27,263 nt of DNA, from the IMG/VR virus record IMGVR_UViG_3300045931_000164, positions 1 through 27,263 of that record. One strand, 5' to 3'. The stretch is from a virus. A model generated the notes under the pieces. That model made no database searches and had not been told where the DNA came from. It saw only the letters and a list, made by a program, of their open reading frames with translations. Positions 4,199 to 24,832 of the stretch are shown here, one piece after another (within the stretch, counting starts at the first letter, position 1; the number at the start of each line of letters is the position of its first letter). The translations under genes and the position numbers were made by a program.

Positions 4199-4218
4199 CT
4201 GACAAGGAGGTTAGTGAC

Positions 4219-20432: not shown

Positions 20433-20455
20433 AAGCCCCTGATCAGCGCAGGGGC
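20425..20455 (-). terminator. Intrinsic terminator of the integrase gene
   Basis: The perfect 7-bp stem GCCCCTG/CAGGGGC (20435-20441 with 20449-20455) has a 7-nt loop, and on the - strand is followed by TTTATTTTT. The integrase stop codon lies in the loop, and the U-tract coincides with the right-arm repeat. It would end the leftward transcript next to attP. Confidence 0.75.
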
Positions 20456-21492
20456 GTCACCTTCGAGACCCCTCTGCGGTAGTGCTTTTGTGCGGTCTTC
20501 ACGGTGTCCCCGAGGAGCTCGGCGGCCCGCTCGTCGCTCTCGGCGTCCGACCCGGACTTCGCGCGGATGTCGTGCTCGACGAAACGCTCCCCGCCATCCT
20601 TCAGGTGCCGCTCCATCGTGCGATACCACTCGCTCTTGAAGGCCTGTTTGGTGATCGCCCGGCCGGCGTAGGCCTTCTCGGTCCGCCTCATCATGAAGAG
20701 CGGCCGCGGCAGTGCAGCAATGCCCTCCGGGAGTGTCGGGCGCAGCGCCAGGATGGCGTCCACGACGCGCTTGAGCGACGGGCTCCAGCGCACCAGGCGG
20801 TGCTTGCCGCGCTTGTTCTGGACGTAGTCGATCCCGCGCGCGGTCAGGTTCGCGTCGGTCAGGCGCAGGAGGTTCCCCTGGCGCATCGCGGTGAGGCGCT
20901 TCAGCATGATGTAGCAGCGCAGCCACCGCGGGCCGTGGCGCTCGAACTGGCGCAACTCCTCGGCCCTGACGTAGCGCACGCGCGGGCTCTCCCTGTTCCG
21001 GCGCACGCCATAGCATGGGTTAACCGTGACATCGTAGCGGTCATCTCCCATAGCCCAACTGTAAGCCGAGGAGAGGAGAGCGATCTCCCGGTTCGCGCGC
21101 ACGGGCGCGGGCACGCCCTGCTTGTCGGTGCGCTTCCTGAGGTAGCGGGCGGCGTGCTTGGAGTTGACGAGCCCGTATTTCATGCGCCCGAATGTGGCCT
21201 TGAGCATCTCGGCCTCGCCCAGGTTGGACTTGTGGGTCTCCATGCTGCGCCGTCCGGCGCGCACCTCGCCCTCGCAGTAGACGAGGAAGGAGTCGAGCAT
21301 CTCGCCCACGGTTCCCTCGGCGGTAGCCTTCCCGGTGGAGAGCTCGACCCACTTCGCGCGGGCATCGCGGTCCCAGGTCTTGCCGAGCCGGGTCCACTCG
21401 TTGTTAGCCGGATTGCGCCAGAAATAAATGCCGCGATGCTCATACACGCCCTGCGGCAAATGGGCGTGCTCGGGCTTGCGCCTGCGTGCCAT
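20443..21492 (-). CDS. int: Tyrosine integrase
   Basis: The 349-residue protein catalyses site-specific integration and, with an excisionase, excision. It has an N-terminal arm-binding-like region (1-55), a SAM-like core-binding domain (about 58-160) and the catalytic domain. Arg204 in 'TAMRQGNL', Lys230 (or 227) in the beta hairpin, His307 and Arg310 in 'HDIRAKSG' and the nucleophile Tyr338 in 'QKHYRRG' are visible. The usual second His of 'LGH' is Asp329 here (LLGDT). GGGAGG precedes the ATG. It sits directly beside the tRNA-His attP site. Confidence 0.93.
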   Translation of the reverse strand: MARRRKPEHAHLPQGVYEHRGIYFWRNPANNEWTRLGKTWDRDARAKWVELSTGKATAEGTVGEMLDSFLVYCEGEVRAGRRSMETHKSNLGEAEMLKATFGRMKYGLVNSKHAARYLRKRTDKQGVPAPVRANREIALLSSAYSWAMGDDRYDVTVNPCYGVRRNRESPRVRYVRAEELRQFERHGPRWLRCYIMLKRLTAMRQGNLLRLTDANLTARGIDYVQNKRGKHRLVRWSPSLKRVVDAILALRPTLPEGIAALPRPLFMMRRTEKAYAGRAITKQAFKSEWYRTMERHLKDGGERFVEHDIRAKSGSDAESDERAAELLGDTVKTAQKHYRRGVSKVTPLR

Positions 21493-21497
21493 GTTGT

Positions 21498-21737
21498 CTA
21501 ATCCTCCCTGCCCTTCAGTCTATCCCGCCGTTCGAACATCGAAAAATCGGGCTCTGCGTCCTCGTCGTGGCTGGCGTCGTTCGGGCGCAGGTTCGGCACA
21601 TCGTTCGCGGCGACCTTAACCTTCCCGCCCTTCCTGTAGATGAACCGGATGCCCATCGCCTGCAGCCGCTTCGCCTGCGCCGGCGCCGTGCGGCGATCGG
21701 TCAGTTCGCAGACTTCGTCCGGCGTGAGGTAGAGCAT
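21498..21737 (-). CDS. Excisionase-like DUF4224 protein
   Basis: This 79-residue protein begins at ATG 21737; longer in-frame extensions run through the neighbouring gene. 'MLYLTPDEVCELTDRRTAPA' followed by 'QAKRLQAMGIRFIYRKGGKV' is the small helix-plus-wing DUF4224 pattern seen next to phage integrases. It ends 5 nt before the integrase start, whose Shine-Dalgarno lies in its last codons. A directionality role is therefore likely, though not shown. The C-terminus is acidic and disordered-looking. Confidence 0.7.
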   Translation of the reverse strand: MLYLTPDEVCELTDRRTAPAQAKRLQAMGIRFIYRKGGKVKVAANDVPNLRPNDASHDEDAEPDFSMFERRDRLKGRED

Positions 21738-21748
21738 GTGCGTTACCG

Positions 21749-21976
21749 TCAGTGGTCCCTGTCCATCTCGATCATCACGCGCATGCTCGAGCAGTGGTCC
21801 TCGAAAATCTGCCGGCGCGCTTCCTTCGGGTGGAAGCCGCAGACCCACATGGCCGTCAGTTGCGCGAGCACCGCGCCCTGAACGTGCGGTCCCTGCCCGT
21901 GCAGCAGCACCTCGATCTGTTGGGAGACAGCGAGTGCGCGCCGCATGATCTCTTCGCGGTCCTCGTCCTCTGTCAT
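21749..21976 (-). CDS. Small hypothetical protein in the integrase operon
   Basis: The 75-residue ORF starts in an ATGA overlap with the annealing-protein stop (21973-21976), indicating coupled translation. It is acidic at the N-terminus (MTEDEDREEIMRRA) and helical, with 'LLHGQGPHVQGAVLAQLTAMW' broken by no motif and a final 'MRVMIEMDRDH'. No family is recognised. Its neighbours suggest a recombination accessory role, but this is guilt by association. Confidence 0.6.
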   Translation of the reverse strand: MTEDEDREEIMRRALAVSQQIEVLLHGQGPHVQGAVLAQLTAMWVCGFHPKEARRQIFEDHCSSMRVMIEMDRDH

Positions 21977-22890
21977 GCCTGATCTTCCTTCATGGCCTTC
22001 AAGGTCGCCTCGAGGTCGGTGTATTCGGCCGGCGTGAGCTCCGAAAAATGTTCTTTGCCGTAGGCTTTCAAGCAGTAGTCCTTCACGTGCTCGCGGTCGA
22101 GCTTGTGCTCCCTGATGAACGCTTCCAGTCGTTTCTTCTGCGGCTCGCTGATGACGCCGCGCTCGGCTGCCCGCTCCGCCTGGGCCATGCGCTTCAACGC
22201 CGCGCGTGTCTTGGAATCGAGGAGCGTCCATAGCGCGACCTTCTCGTCATTGTCAAAGCCGGAAGCTTCGCAGAGCCCGTAGGCGTCCATCGGCCGGTCT
22301 TCCGCCATGCACTGGCGCACCCCCGCGGCCGTCGCCATGACGACCTCCTGGCGCTCGGCGCTCAACGCCTCGAGCGCGCCGGTCGTTGGAGTAATCGGGG
22401 CTGAGGGCAGCCCCGTCTCGGCACCGGGGATCGAGTCAACTTCAGACTCGTCGAGCCACCCCATCCCGCAGATCGAGAGCGTGACGCGCCGCTTGGCCTT
22501 GGTCTCGCACTTCATCAAGGCATTGCTGCGCGCCTCGCCCTTCAGCCCTTCGAGCGGCACGGCGCCGATCGCCTCGTCGTGCCGGCCGTCCTTGTCGGTC
22601 GCCGTCGCCGTCACCACGTAGCAGCCTTCGACGAGCTCGCGCGACCGGATGCTGATCGACACCCCATGAAGCCTGCGCAACTGGTCGGTGCAGTCACGCA
22701 GGGCGTAGAGGCGCAGCTTCCCGTTCAGGACGATGTACTCGAACGGCTTCGTCAGCGGGTTCAAGCCCTGCGATTCGCACACCCGCTTGTAATACATGAC
22801 GCGCTCTTCCGGCTTGAGCTTCGACAGGTCGCCCTGGATCAGGACCTGCTCGAGCACGGCGCCGCCGTCCTGCTTGCTGGGGAGGCTCAC
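21973..22890 (-). CDS. Putative RecT/Redbeta-like single-strand annealing protein
   Basis: GTG 22890 is preferred: AAGGAG lies 8 nt before it and it makes a GTGA overlap, while the GTG at 22899 would start inside the Shine-Dalgarno. The 305-residue protein has 'CESQGLNPLTKPFEYIVLNG', then 'RDCTDQLRRLHGV', and 'ALMKCETKAKRRVTLSICG', the pattern of phage annealing proteins that pair homologous single strands. A separate helical C-terminal module (about 245-300) has 'SEPQKKRLEAFI' and 'SELTPAEYTDL'. No partner exonuclease is obvious next door. Assignment to a superfamily is from pattern, not alignment. Confidence 0.65.
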   Translation of the reverse strand: MSLPSKQDGGAVLEQVLIQGDLSKLKPEERVMYYKRVCESQGLNPLTKPFEYIVLNGKLRLYALRDCTDQLRRLHGVSISIRSRELVEGCYVVTATATDKDGRHDEAIGAVPLEGLKGEARSNALMKCETKAKRRVTLSICGMGWLDESEVDSIPGAETGLPSAPITPTTGALEALSAERQEVVMATAAGVRQCMAEDRPMDAYGLCEASGFDNDEKVALWTLLDSKTRAALKRMAQAERAAERGVISEPQKKRLEAFIREHKLDREHVKDYCLKAYGKEHFSELTPAEYTDLEATLKAMKEDQA

Positions 22891-23078
22891 TCGCGCCACT
22901 CCTTCGGCGTGGACATCATCAGCTCGCGCTCGAGACCGCGGGCGAACTCGGACCAGTGGAGCATCAGAGAGCGGATGTCCTCGCAGACGCGGAGCACGTC
23001 CTCGTTCGGCAGGCTCGACGGCAGATGGATCGTCGGCAGCAGGTTTATGAAGTTGTCGGTGCGCGGGGTCTCGATCAT
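22887..23078 (-). CDS. Small hypothetical early protein
   Basis: ATG 23078 has GGAGGAG 5 nt upstream and gives 63 residues. Longer in-frame starts at 23135 (ATG with GAGGAG) and 23156 (GTG) would add a basic leader. It contains 'LPNEDVLRVCEDIRSLMLHW', a helical segment. It is the first gene downstream of the leftward early promoter and overlaps the annealing-protein start by 4 nt. Function unknown. Confidence 0.6.
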   Translation of the reverse strand: MIETPRTDNFINLLPTIHLPSSLPNEDVLRVCEDIRSLMLHWSEFARGLERELMMSTPKEWRE

Positions 23079-23203
23079 CGTTCTCCTCCTCTGCTGGTTG
23101 CGAAGCTTCATCGCCAGGCTGCGGTTGCGGTGCATGGTGGGGAACTCCTCGGTCACGGGTTCTTAAGGAGTGGTTAAAGTCCGCGTCATATAGGCGTAGG
23201 CGT

Positions 23204-23244
23204 AGTTTAGACTCCTAGAATCCTGCTGTCCAGAGTCCTAAACT
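23204..23244 (-). promoter_or_regulatory. Leftward early promoter with two embedded operators
   Basis: On the - strand, TGGACA (23232-23227) and TAAACT (23209-23204) are separated by 17 nt, a strong sigma70 match. Operator copies occupy 23204-23221 (AGTTTAG-ACTC-CTAGAAT) and 23227-23244 (TGTCCAG-AGTC-CTAAACT), 23 bp centre to centre, covering the -10 and the -35. This is the counterpart of lambda pL/OL and would drive the recombination-integration operon. Confidence 0.75.
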
Positions 23245-23253
23245 ACACAAGCG

Positions 23254-23275
23254 AAAAAACCCCGCCGGAGCGGGG
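23254..23275 (-). terminator. Intrinsic terminator after the repressor gene
   Basis: The stem CCCCGC/GCGGGG (23260-23265 with 23270-23275) has a 4-nt loop, and on the - strand is followed by TTTTTT (23259-23254). It ends the repressor transcript just before the leftward early promoter. Confidence 0.85.
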
Positions 23276-23314
23276 CGCGCGCGGTTCAACCTCTTCCAGT
23301 GAAGCCGCTAGGGT

Positions 23315-23448
23315 TTACCCCTTGAAAGTTTCCGCGATGCGCGCGAGGCGCTCGCGCTCTTCCTGGGTCATGCTCATCATGGCGGCGTAGACGCGGCGTA
23401 TCGTCGGGTCAAGGCGTTTGGGCATGCGGCCCCACATGATCCATTCTC
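23315..23448 (-). pseudogene. Out-of-frame C-terminal part of the repressor
   Basis: Just where the HTH repressor frame diverges, the +1 frame continues with 'REWIMWGRMPKRLDPTIRR' and ends 'QEERERLARIAETFKG' before TAA at 23315. 'TGY-R-REWIMWGRMPKR' is what would be expected after 'NIEKHTGY' in short phage repressors, and 'MTQEERERLARIAE' is a typical repressor C-terminus. The intact protein would be about 103 residues, without an S24 protease domain. It may be joined to the N-terminal part by frameshifting, or be a mutated remnant. Confidence 0.6.
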
Positions 23449-23627
23449 TTCCTATAGCCGGTATGTTTCTCGATGTTCTCGGCGTGGATGGGGCTGATCG
23501 ACTTCGCCGTGCCGTCACGCCATTGCGTGACGAGGCCCTTGCTGCACCCGGCGATGTCGGCGAGCTGGGTCGATTTCAGTTTCTGCTCGGTCAGCATTTC
23601 GTTGATGCGCTGTCCAAGAGTACTCAT
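23409..23627 (-). CDS. XRE-type HTH repressor, CI position, apparently frameshifted
   Basis: The 72-residue frame starts 'MSTLGQRINEMLTEQKLKST' and has a clear helix-turn-helix (about residues 17-38: 'QLADIAGCSKGLVTQW'), followed by 'NIEKHTGYR'. After Arg59 the sequence loses similarity ('KRMDHVGPHAQTP') while the +1 frame continues the expected domain. The change lies near 23449-23453 at AGG-AAG-AGA, which contains rare Arg codons and no long homopolymer. It is divergent to the Cro-like gene as in lambda, so it is the likely lysogeny repressor. No Shine-Dalgarno precedes the ATG. Confidence 0.75.
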   Translation of the reverse strand: MSTLGQRINEMLTEQKLKSTQLADIAGCSKGLVTQWRDGTAKSISPIHAENIEKHTGYRKRMDHVGPHAQTP

Positions 23628-23651
23628 AGGCTTGGACCGTAGCTTGGAAGC

Positions 23652-23692
23652 GGTAGAGGATGCTTGACGCACCTTCTTTAGCGTCCTAAACT
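23652..23692 (+). promoter_or_regulatory. Rightward cro promoter with embedded operators
   Basis: TTGACG (23664-23669) and TAAACT (23687-23692) are 17 nt apart. Operator TCTTTAG-CGTC-CTAAACT at 23675-23692 contains the -10. A weaker copy, GGTAGAG-GATG-CTTGACG at 23652-23669, contains the -35 and is 23 bp away centre to centre. The -10 ends 7 nt before ATG 23700, so transcription should start at or next to the ATG. Confidence 0.75.
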
Positions 23693-23699
23693 TCGCGGC

Positions 23700-23888
23700 A
23701 TGAACGTGCAAGCCTTCACCCAGGCCGTGGGAGGCCGCCGCGTCCTGATCTCCGTGACCGGCCTTAGCAAGGGCCGCATTTCGCAGTGGGTTACGGACAA
23801 TCATATCCCGCGCTCCTGGGTGAAATTCCTGGAGCTGCGCTTCCCGGTCGCGTGCCGCAAGCACGGCATACGCGATCTCACGCCCTGA
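23700..23888 (+). CDS. Cro-like HTH regulator
   Basis: The 62-residue protein has 'RRVLISVTGLSKGRISQWV' (HTH about residues 13-32) and 'HIPRSWVKFLELRFP', like small Cro/YdaS-type phage regulators. No Shine-Dalgarno is present and the promoter -10 is only 7 nt upstream, so a leaderless mRNA is predicted. It is divergent to the repressor and its 3' end overlaps the next, convergent gene by 11 nt. It should compete for the same operators and favour lytic growth. Confidence 0.75.
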   Translation: MNVQAFTQAVGGRRVLISVTGLSKGRISQWVTDNHIPRSWVKFLELRFPVACRKHGIRDLTP

Positions 23889-24234
23889 AGAGTCCCCGAT
23901 AGCGGGCCTCCGTCGCCACCGACATGAACCAACCGATTCGGAGCCAGTTCTTGGCGCGGGCGGGGGGCATCACTCCGAGAATGTTGAGCGCCTGCGTGGC
24001 TTGCTTGCTGCGGCTGGGCGCCCGCATCGGTCCGCGCCCGGCCCGCAGCCATTCCATGCTGGCGCCGGTGGCCTTGCTCAACGCCAGCAATTCGTCCGCC
24101 AGCAGAACGCCCGGACGGTTGAGGACATGCTCGAAGCGGTCGCGCCCGATCCGGGCGCGTACGGGTAACTCTTCCCACACGATGTCGGCGGCTGCGGAGG
24201 CGGTGCGCAGCCGCGCGCGAAAGGTTCGCTGCAT
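23878..24234 (-). CDS. Second phage regulator, XRE-like
   Basis: CGGAGGT stands 4 nt before ATG 24234, a strong start. The 118-residue protein has 'ARIGRDRFEHVLNRPGVLLADELL' split by the usual HTH spacing and 'LSKATGASMEWLRAGRGPM', the post-HTH signature of phage repressors, then a basic C-terminal part (RARLR...ARAKNWL). It occupies the cII-like slot between cro and replication but on the opposite strand, so cro transcription runs antisense through it. It may set a second layer of lysogeny control. Confidence 0.65.
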   Translation of the reverse strand: MQRTFRARLRTASAAADIVWEELPVRARIGRDRFEHVLNRPGVLLADELLALSKATGASMEWLRAGRGPMRAPSRSKQATQALNILGVMPPARAKNWLRIGWFMSVATEARYRGLFRA

Positions 24235-24270
24235 TAGACCTCCGGTTTTTATTCAAAACGTCGAGGGTAC

Positions 24271-24281
24271 TGCACGGTGCA
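24271..24281. promoter_or_regulatory. Palindrome upstream of the second regulator
   Basis: TGCAC-G-GTGCA is a perfect 11-nt palindrome 37 nt upstream of ATG 24234. On the - strand TTGAAA (24294-24289) lies just upstream of it. The site differs from the AGTTTAG operators, so it could be the autoregulatory site of the second regulator. Low confidence: short palindromes occur by chance. Confidence 0.3.
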
Positions 24282-24297
24282 ATCGACATTTCAAGAA

Positions 24298-24360
24298 CGC
24301 TTCCCTCCCGCTCATCCCCAGGGAAGCGCTTTTCCCGGCTCGCAAGGGCCGGGATTTCTT
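24298..24360 (+). terminator. Tandem intrinsic terminators between switch and replication genes
   Basis: Stem 1 pairs CGCTTCCCT with AGGGAAGCG (24298-24306 with 24320-24328) and is followed by CTTTT. Stem 2 pairs CCCGGC with GCCGGG (24334-24339 with 24348-24353) and is followed by ATTTCTT. They would stop rightward transcripts from the cro promoter, as lambda tR1 does, just before the replication promoter. Confidence 0.6.
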
Positions 24361-24387
24361 CATTCTCTGATGTTGTCATATCGGCGA

Positions 24388-24429
24388 AGTTTAGATAGCT
24401 AGACTTCGCCATGTCAAGCACTCTAAACC
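24388..24429 (+). promoter_or_regulatory. Replication promoter with embedded operator pair
   Basis: TAGACT (24400-24405) and TAAACC (24424-24429) are 18 nt apart. Operators lie at 24388-24405 (AGTTTAG-ATAG-CTAGACT, nearly symmetric) and 24412-24429 (TGTCAAG-CACT-CTAAACC), 24 bp centre to centre. The first is extended by flanking GGCGA/TCGCC. The -10 ends 7 nt before ATG 24437, the same geometry as the cro promoter. Confidence 0.65.
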
Positions 24430-24436
24430 CACAGCC

Positions 24437-24832
24437 ATGAGCCTCGCAACCCGCCAGGCGTGGCAGGCGCACCTGTTCGGCGGAGGGGCCACGCCCGGCC
24501 CGCGGCGCCGGAACCAGCACCCTGAGCAGGGCGTGCTGAACGCCGTCATCAAGGTCCTGCGCCTGCACCCGGAGGTCTCCTGGGTCGCGCGGATGAATAG
24601 CGGCGCCTACCGGATGCCCGACGGGCGATACGTGCGCTTCGGGTTCCCAGGCTGCCCGGACATCCTGGGCCAGATGTGCGATGGACGCCTGCTGGCGATC
24701 GAGGTGAAGAGCTCGAAGGGGCGCCTCACGGACGAGCAGGAATTCATGCTCGCCAAGGTCCGGGCGAATAACGGTGTATCAGGGGTCGCGCGGTCGATCG
24801 CGGAGGCGGTCGCGATCGTGGAGGGCCGGTGA
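24437..24832 (+). CDS. VRR-NUC domain nuclease
   Basis: The 131-residue protein is a PD-(D/E)xK nuclease of the VRR-NUC type: 'GFPGCPDILG' supplies Asp75, 'LLAIEVKSSKG' gives Glu89 and Lys91, and Gln101 follows in 'LTDEQEFML'. An early Glu30-Gln31 and 'RMNSGAYR' fit the family core. It probably cuts branched or structured DNA during replication or recombination. No Shine-Dalgarno precedes the ATG; a leaderless transcript is predicted. The stop overlaps the start region of the next gene. Confidence 0.85.
   Translation: MSLATRQAWQAHLFGGGATPGPRRRNQHPEQGVLNAVIKVLRLHPEVSWVARMNSGAYRMPDGRYVRFGFPGCPDILGQMCDGRLLAIEVKSSKGRLTDEQEFMLAKVRANNGVSGVARSIAEAVAIVEGR

Follow-up and report, generated by a model that had tools for sequence, protein, structure and literature searches.

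Among published operators, those closest by half-site to the ones considered here are the operators of CP-933P from Escherichia coli O157:H7. These are 18-bp palindromes with the half-site GTTTAGTAA, in a region that has been footprinted with PaaR2 and YdaS over PR and PRM (PMC8630535). Footprints and fusions have been reported for palindromes of GTTTAG half-sites at PR, PRM and PL, where PL is repressed and has operators of its own, and the repressor mRNA in this system is leaderless (PMC8630535). Leaderless cro and cI mRNAs have been described in PY54, where the cro mRNA was mapped (PMC4488713), and in Rac three repeats are bound by RacR (PMC5700373).

In this study, we analysed positions 1 to 27,263 of the IMG/VR virus record IMGVR_UViG_3300045931_000164; this whole stretch is referred to here as the window. 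It carries terminase, portal, head and tail genes, followed by an immunity region and then by replication-type genes, and integrase and excisionase genes on the minus strand precede the immunity region.

Results

The window contains a GTTTAG-N4-CTAAAC operator in six imperfect copies, arranged as three pairs that each overlap a sigma-70-like promoter (Table 1). In a sequence-only reading of the same DNA, these had been described as six copies of AGTTTAG-N4-CTAAACT; the coordinates were correct, but the copies are not uniform and carry 1 to 6 mismatches each. A hand count across the 14 bases that the pattern specifies gives 2 and 3 mismatches for pair 1 (sites starting at 23204 and 23227), 6 and 2 for pair 2 (23652 and 23675) and 1 and 4 for pair 3 (24388 and 24412), and the 23652 site, with the highest number of the six, is indeed the weakest. 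The centre-to-centre distances of 23, 23 and 24 bp and the hexamer spacers of 17, 17 and 18 nt also held on checking, the operator distance being equal to the promoter spacing since the two hexamers occupy equivalent positions in their respective operators.

With AGTTTAGNNNNCTAAACT and up to 3 mismatches allowed, the window gave four matches where 0.09 would be expected, and a count of four was not reached in any of 100 shuffles. A two-site composite matrix, trained on relatives alone (19 composites of the PR/PL type), identified exactly three places in the 27 kb window, which are the three pairs. The scores were 39.6 bits on the minus and 24.8 bits on the plus strand for 24388-24429, 21.9 bits on the plus strand for 23652-23692, and 17.8 (minus) and 17.7 bits (plus) for 23204-23244; no positive score was seen in any of 60 shuffled windows. 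A plain sigma-70 scan of 23000-24700 returned exactly three promoters, one per pair, against 0.2 expected. A motif occurring as often elsewhere in the genome had been named as a result that would speak against the pairs; beyond these, no further copies were found in the window or in a 56.5-kb contig of the same phage, which is 99.99% identical over 8.6 kb. Across the seven whole records scanned, there were two motif clusters per phage and three in the phage of the window, the other matches being single, stray and weak.

Table 1. Features of the immunity region and the adjoining operons in the window
Feature	Position	Strand	Details	Basis
Leftward operon of PL	20443-23156	-		Predicted co-transcription
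Integrase	20443-21492	-	PL operon
Excisionase	21498-21848	-	PL operon
308-aa ORF	21973-22899	-	PL operon
Small ORF	22887-23156	-	PL operon
PL operator pair (pair 1)	23204-23244	-	23227-23244 and 23204-23221	Coordinates, matrix, promoter scan
PL promoter		-	-35 TGGACA (23232-23227), 17-nt spacer, -10 TAAACT (23209-23204)	Promoter scan
Intrinsic terminator-like hairpin	23259-23276	-	Closes cI transcript just before PL	Hairpin scan
67-aa overlapping frame	23315-23518	-	Probably carries the rest of the CI frame	Position and motif REWIMWG
CI-like repressor	23412-23627	-	72-aa open frame with complete HTH; frame changes after HTH domain
PR operator pair (pair 2)	23652-23692	+	23652-23669 (weak) and 23675-23692	Coordinates, matrix, promoter scan
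PR promoter		+	-35 TTGACG (23664-23669), 17-nt spacer, -10 TAAACT (23687-23692)	Promoter scan
Cro-like HTH protein	23700-23888	+	62 aa	Homology, fold search
118-aa repressor-like protein	23878-24234	-	Convergent with cro; GGAGG ribosome site	phrog_2328 transcriptional repressor, E 3.6e-5
Terminator-like hairpin	24333-24354	+	For rightward PR transcripts	Hairpin scan
Third operator pair (pair 3)	24388-24429	-	24412-24429 and 24388-24405	Pattern, matrix, promoter scan
Pair 3, best promoter		-	TTGACA (24417-24412), 18-nt spacer, TAAACT (24393-24388)
Pair 3, weaker promoter reading		+	TAGACT-18-TAAACC
VRR-NUC nuclease	24437-24832	+	131 aa	Domain search

Pair 2 is flanked by divergent genes for the CI-like and Cro-like HTH proteins, and its PR composite is homologous in all relatives whose half-sites are 4 bp apart (the N4 relatives). 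The Cro-like protein matched PF15943 (YdaS-family) with an E value of 0.01, which falls short of the Pfam cut-off, and a fold search pointed to a Cro-like fold through weak matches, N15 Cro being the top one and weak as well. A search of 50,697 records of named phages with the Cro proteins and with the region gave no match. The cro ATG lies 7 nt past the -10 box in the window, and a distance of 5-7 nt is seen in the window and in most relatives; with the ATG so close to the -10, the cro mRNA is likely to be leaderless. Some related loci (L061 and L066), by contrast, have a 33-nt leader.

Relatives of the 62-aa Cro-like protein came from IMG/VR as well as from bacterial genomes (Paraburkholderia, Advenella, Alcaligenes and a Burkholderiaceae bacterium), and those with paired operators are prophages of Burkholderiaceae and Alcaligenaceae as well as metagenomic phages. 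The pairs in these relatives occupy two places, namely PR (cro) and PL (leftward operon). Between cI and cro, the N4 group has the composite GGTTTAG-N4-C[TTGACT]-N5/6-GGTTTAG-N4-C[TATACT], with the cro ATG 5-7 nt further on, and a second composite is found on the opposite strand beyond cI; most N4 relatives have three operators between cI and cro in addition to the PL pair. All left half-sites of the training set read GTTTAG, and the right ones deviate from the palindrome at the promoter bases (-35 CTTGACT, -10 CTATACT). This set was picked with the pattern and the invariance is therefore partly due to selection, although a set picked by homology agrees with it. A composite scan of all of IMG/VR returned 10 stretches, in which Cro/CI genes or a PL terminator adjoin the composite where checked, and some of which (L061, L066) have a different Cro type together with the longer leader. 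In named phages the scan gave chance Vibrio matches alone (E about 4), and nothing was found in E. coli genomes. L004 has a similar Cro and a diverged operator region between cI and cro, and at 4203, where PL is located, it carries one AGTTTAGAACATTAGACT site.

Pair 1 would correspond to PL and, if the genes are co-transcribed, would drive an operon that ends in excisionase and integrase. An equivalent pair is present downstream of cI in L002, L003, L005, L007, L017 and L029, and in L005 a terminator-like hairpin lies, by eye, directly before the PL pair, which is the same layout as in the window.

No counterpart of pair 3 was found among the relatives. Its leftward composite is the best match to the matrix in the window, and the leftward operator GGTTTAGAGTGCTTGACA is one base off the PR operator of L005, L061, L065 and L066. 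It had been proposed that pair 3 is a plus-strand early promoter (TAGACT/TAAACC), but the scan found only the minus-strand TTGACA-18-TAAACT, the plus-strand promoter being weak, and the direction first assigned is probably wrong. The gene for the 118-aa protein is the likely target of the leftward promoter. No relatives of this protein beyond the same phage were found in IMG/VR, and it was rejected as a homologue of the relatives' CI, with which it could not be aligned. An ATG 8 nt past the leftward -10 box opens a putative frame at 24253-24381 on the minus strand, which was recorded as overlapping the 118-aa gene out of phase.

Over its first 60 residues, the CI of the window matches that of the relatives (hhalign E 2e-15), and it then ends early. 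In the other frame, REWIMWG resembles the IWLVLG of the relatives; the profile match for this continuation is weak and covers just 14 residues, and the split of CI is therefore deduced from position and motif. The same split sequence is present in the near-identical contig L001, which may belong to the same population as the phage of the window. By eye, N4 relatives have a third operator by the start of cI, which overlaps -10 boxes of the TAGATT type located 7-8 nt upstream of the cI ATG; such a cI-proximal operator (OR3) was not found in the window, either by coordinates or with the relatives-only matrix. With the CI reading frame split and OR3 missing, the lysogenic arm may be altered, and CI may not repress in the normal way in this phage.

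In a sister set (L023, L024, L030, L031, L035, L037, L039 and L040), GTTTAG-N6-CTAAAC operators are found upstream of cro, and wherever both sites of a pair are recognizable, their distance is 23-24 bp here too, at PR as well as at PL. The CI of this N6 group belongs to a different family from the N4-type CI. Several Cro proteins of the group share 63-67% identity with the Cro of L022 and L029, which have N4 operators and an N4-type CI, while in L061 and L066 the N4-type CI and the N4 operators are accompanied by a different Cro. This suggests that CI, rather than Cro, sets the half-site gap. A tree of the Cro proteins needs one change only to account for the switch in gap, so the link is an association and not proof, and the idea that it has repeated independent support was rejected.

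Discussion

We consider it highly probable that the three pairs are OL/OR-type operators of a lambda-type immunity region in a temperate phage, with pair 3 as an extra one. Repeated palindromic operators 23-24 bp apart cover the -35 and -10 of PR, cI and cro diverge with operators between them, and beyond cI a leftward promoter has an operator set of its own, seen as pair 1 in the window and as the corresponding pairs in relatives; three OR operators, with the cI-proximal one at PRM, are seen in N4 relatives and not in the window. The sequence-only reading had drawn attention to operator pairs superimposed on -35 and -10 boxes, and the same composite is indeed present at PR and PL of the relatives, with the same geometry in lambda. 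Its statement that lambda operators are about 23-24 bp apart was also accurate, with 24 bp for OR1-OR2 and OL1-OL2 and 23 bp for OR2-OR3. Its picture of a compact version of the lambda switch was not supported, as most N4 relatives have an ordinary lambda-like set and the window is without the cI-proximal operator.

In the mechanism we propose, each operator would be a palindrome of GGTTTAG half-sites, in which the left half-sites stay near the consensus for the repressor and the right half-site is altered, to a -35 hexamer in one operator and to a -10 in the next, giving the design GGTTTAG-N4-C[-35]-N5/6-GGTTTAG-N4-C[-10]. Occupation of either site by a dimer of CI or Cro would be expected to exclude RNA polymerase. 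Pair 2 would function as PR (cro) and pair 1 as PL, and pair 3 would be an additional operator-promoter, restricted to this phage, which most likely reads left into the second repressor-like gene. The sites themselves, their conservation, their overlap with promoters and the lack of further copies are observed; that proteins bind and repress here, that translation is leaderless and what pair 3 does are inferred from the sequence, and that one protein might bind all six sites is a prediction of the same kind.

As in the window, the operators of lambda OR and OL are 23-24 bp apart, and the hexamers of PR and PL overlap outer half-sites of operators next to each other; in lambda, however, the hexamers are placed at +5 to +11 relative to the operator centre, about 2 bp further out than here (+3.5 to +8.5), and lambda has another half-site sequence, a normal cro leader and no third cluster. 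The GTTTAG half-site is identical to the consensus text published for the CP-933P (PaaR2/YdaS) system, which resembles the window also in its short CI-like and Cro-like (YdaS) regulators and, if the cro mRNA here is leaderless as predicted, in its leaderless regulator mRNA. Going by the published description, the half-sites of its palindromes would be separated by 6 bp, as they are in the N6 sister group, whereas the gap in the window is 4 bp; there are four repeats at PR instead of two or three, and its leaderless gene is the repressor, while here it would mainly be cro. The PY54/N15 telomere phages differ in that PY54 Cro binds a single operator and the prophages are linear plasmids. In the RacR/YdaS system of Rac in E. 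coli K-12, paired palindromes are found at the -35/-10 edges of PR- and PL-like promoters, as here. Operators of Rac and Qin (DicA/DicC) were rejected as members of the same sequence family, their half-sites being TTAGGC (Rac) and TTAGT/C-like (Qin) and not GTTTAG. In the literature searched, which takes in a minority of the subscription journals, we found no description of this Betaproteobacterial-phage operator family, the third pair or the spacing link. The paired operator-promoter plan is for the most part already known; the present example is real, conserved and lambda-like, and its novelty is modest.

That the repeats arose by chance and have no function is scarcely conceivable. Two of the six sites carry at least 4 mismatches to a perfect palindrome, but the excess of matches over expectation, the lack of any shuffled window with a positive composite score and the retention of pairs at the same two places across many different phages all argue against it. 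A third early promoter reading right from pair 3 is a proposal that we think unlikely. It would give VRR-NUC and the replication genes a leaderless transcript of their own, downstream of the cro terminator, with the replication genes repressed directly and not through PR read-through alone, and a bidirectional element would be the mixed form. Consistent with this proposal, the VRR-NUC ATG lies 7 nt beyond the plus-strand TAAACC, the same distance as in cro, and a terminator-like hairpin lies upstream. Moreover, L057 has an 88%-identical VRR-NUC gene for which homology reaches up to CCACAGCCATG, and a ribosome-site-like AAAGG replaces the operator half-site of the window there, with homology resuming at CCACAGCCATG. 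However, the -10 TAAACC is without the final T and matches at 3/6 positions, the composite score is 24.8 bits on the plus against 39.6 on the minus strand, and the promoter scan returns the minus promoter alone. From the position of the VRR-NUC ATG and the L057 comparison, pair 3 may be a bidirectional element. We rejected the idea that the pair has long belonged to the promoter of the nuclease gene, as the 88%-identical L057 gene has no such pair. A different palindrome, GTATCCGACCGGATAC, is found just upstream of this closest VRR-NUC homologue (L057 3960-4000) and is apparently common to a divergent gene set, so that the same nuclease gene is accompanied by another operator.

A further question is which protein acts on the operators. 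Binding by Cro or the 118-aa protein, and not by a broken CI, would describe a virulent-leaning or rewired derivative without normal CI-maintained lysogeny, a view to which we give limited credence. The CI frame is split after residue 60, the OR3 slot has no operator, the PR operator is weak and a second repressor-like gene is present here alone, all of which would fit such a derivative. On the other hand, an integrase and an excisionase are present, the 72-aa CI keeps a complete HTH, and a recoded frame or an assembly artefact is possible; L001 shows the same sequence but may come from the same population.

Going beyond the reading of the pairs as lambda-type operators, we put forward as speculation, and with considerable doubt, that the immunity circuit has been rebuilt. 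The old CI would have been truncated and OR3 lost, and a third module at 24388-24429 would extend the control of the same operators to another short repressor of 118 aa, and perhaps to a nuclease/replication operon with a leaderless transcript, giving a three-node switch; in the phage group, the gap would follow the CI family and the half-site would stay constant for the shared Cro. The natural swaps, in which a similar Cro occurs with another CI and gap, or the same CI with another Cro and the same operators, offer a testable case for which partner sets the geometry. The operator-promoter module is compact, strongly conserved and recognizable by sequence alone, and it may be used to locate and orient immunity regions in uncultured phages.
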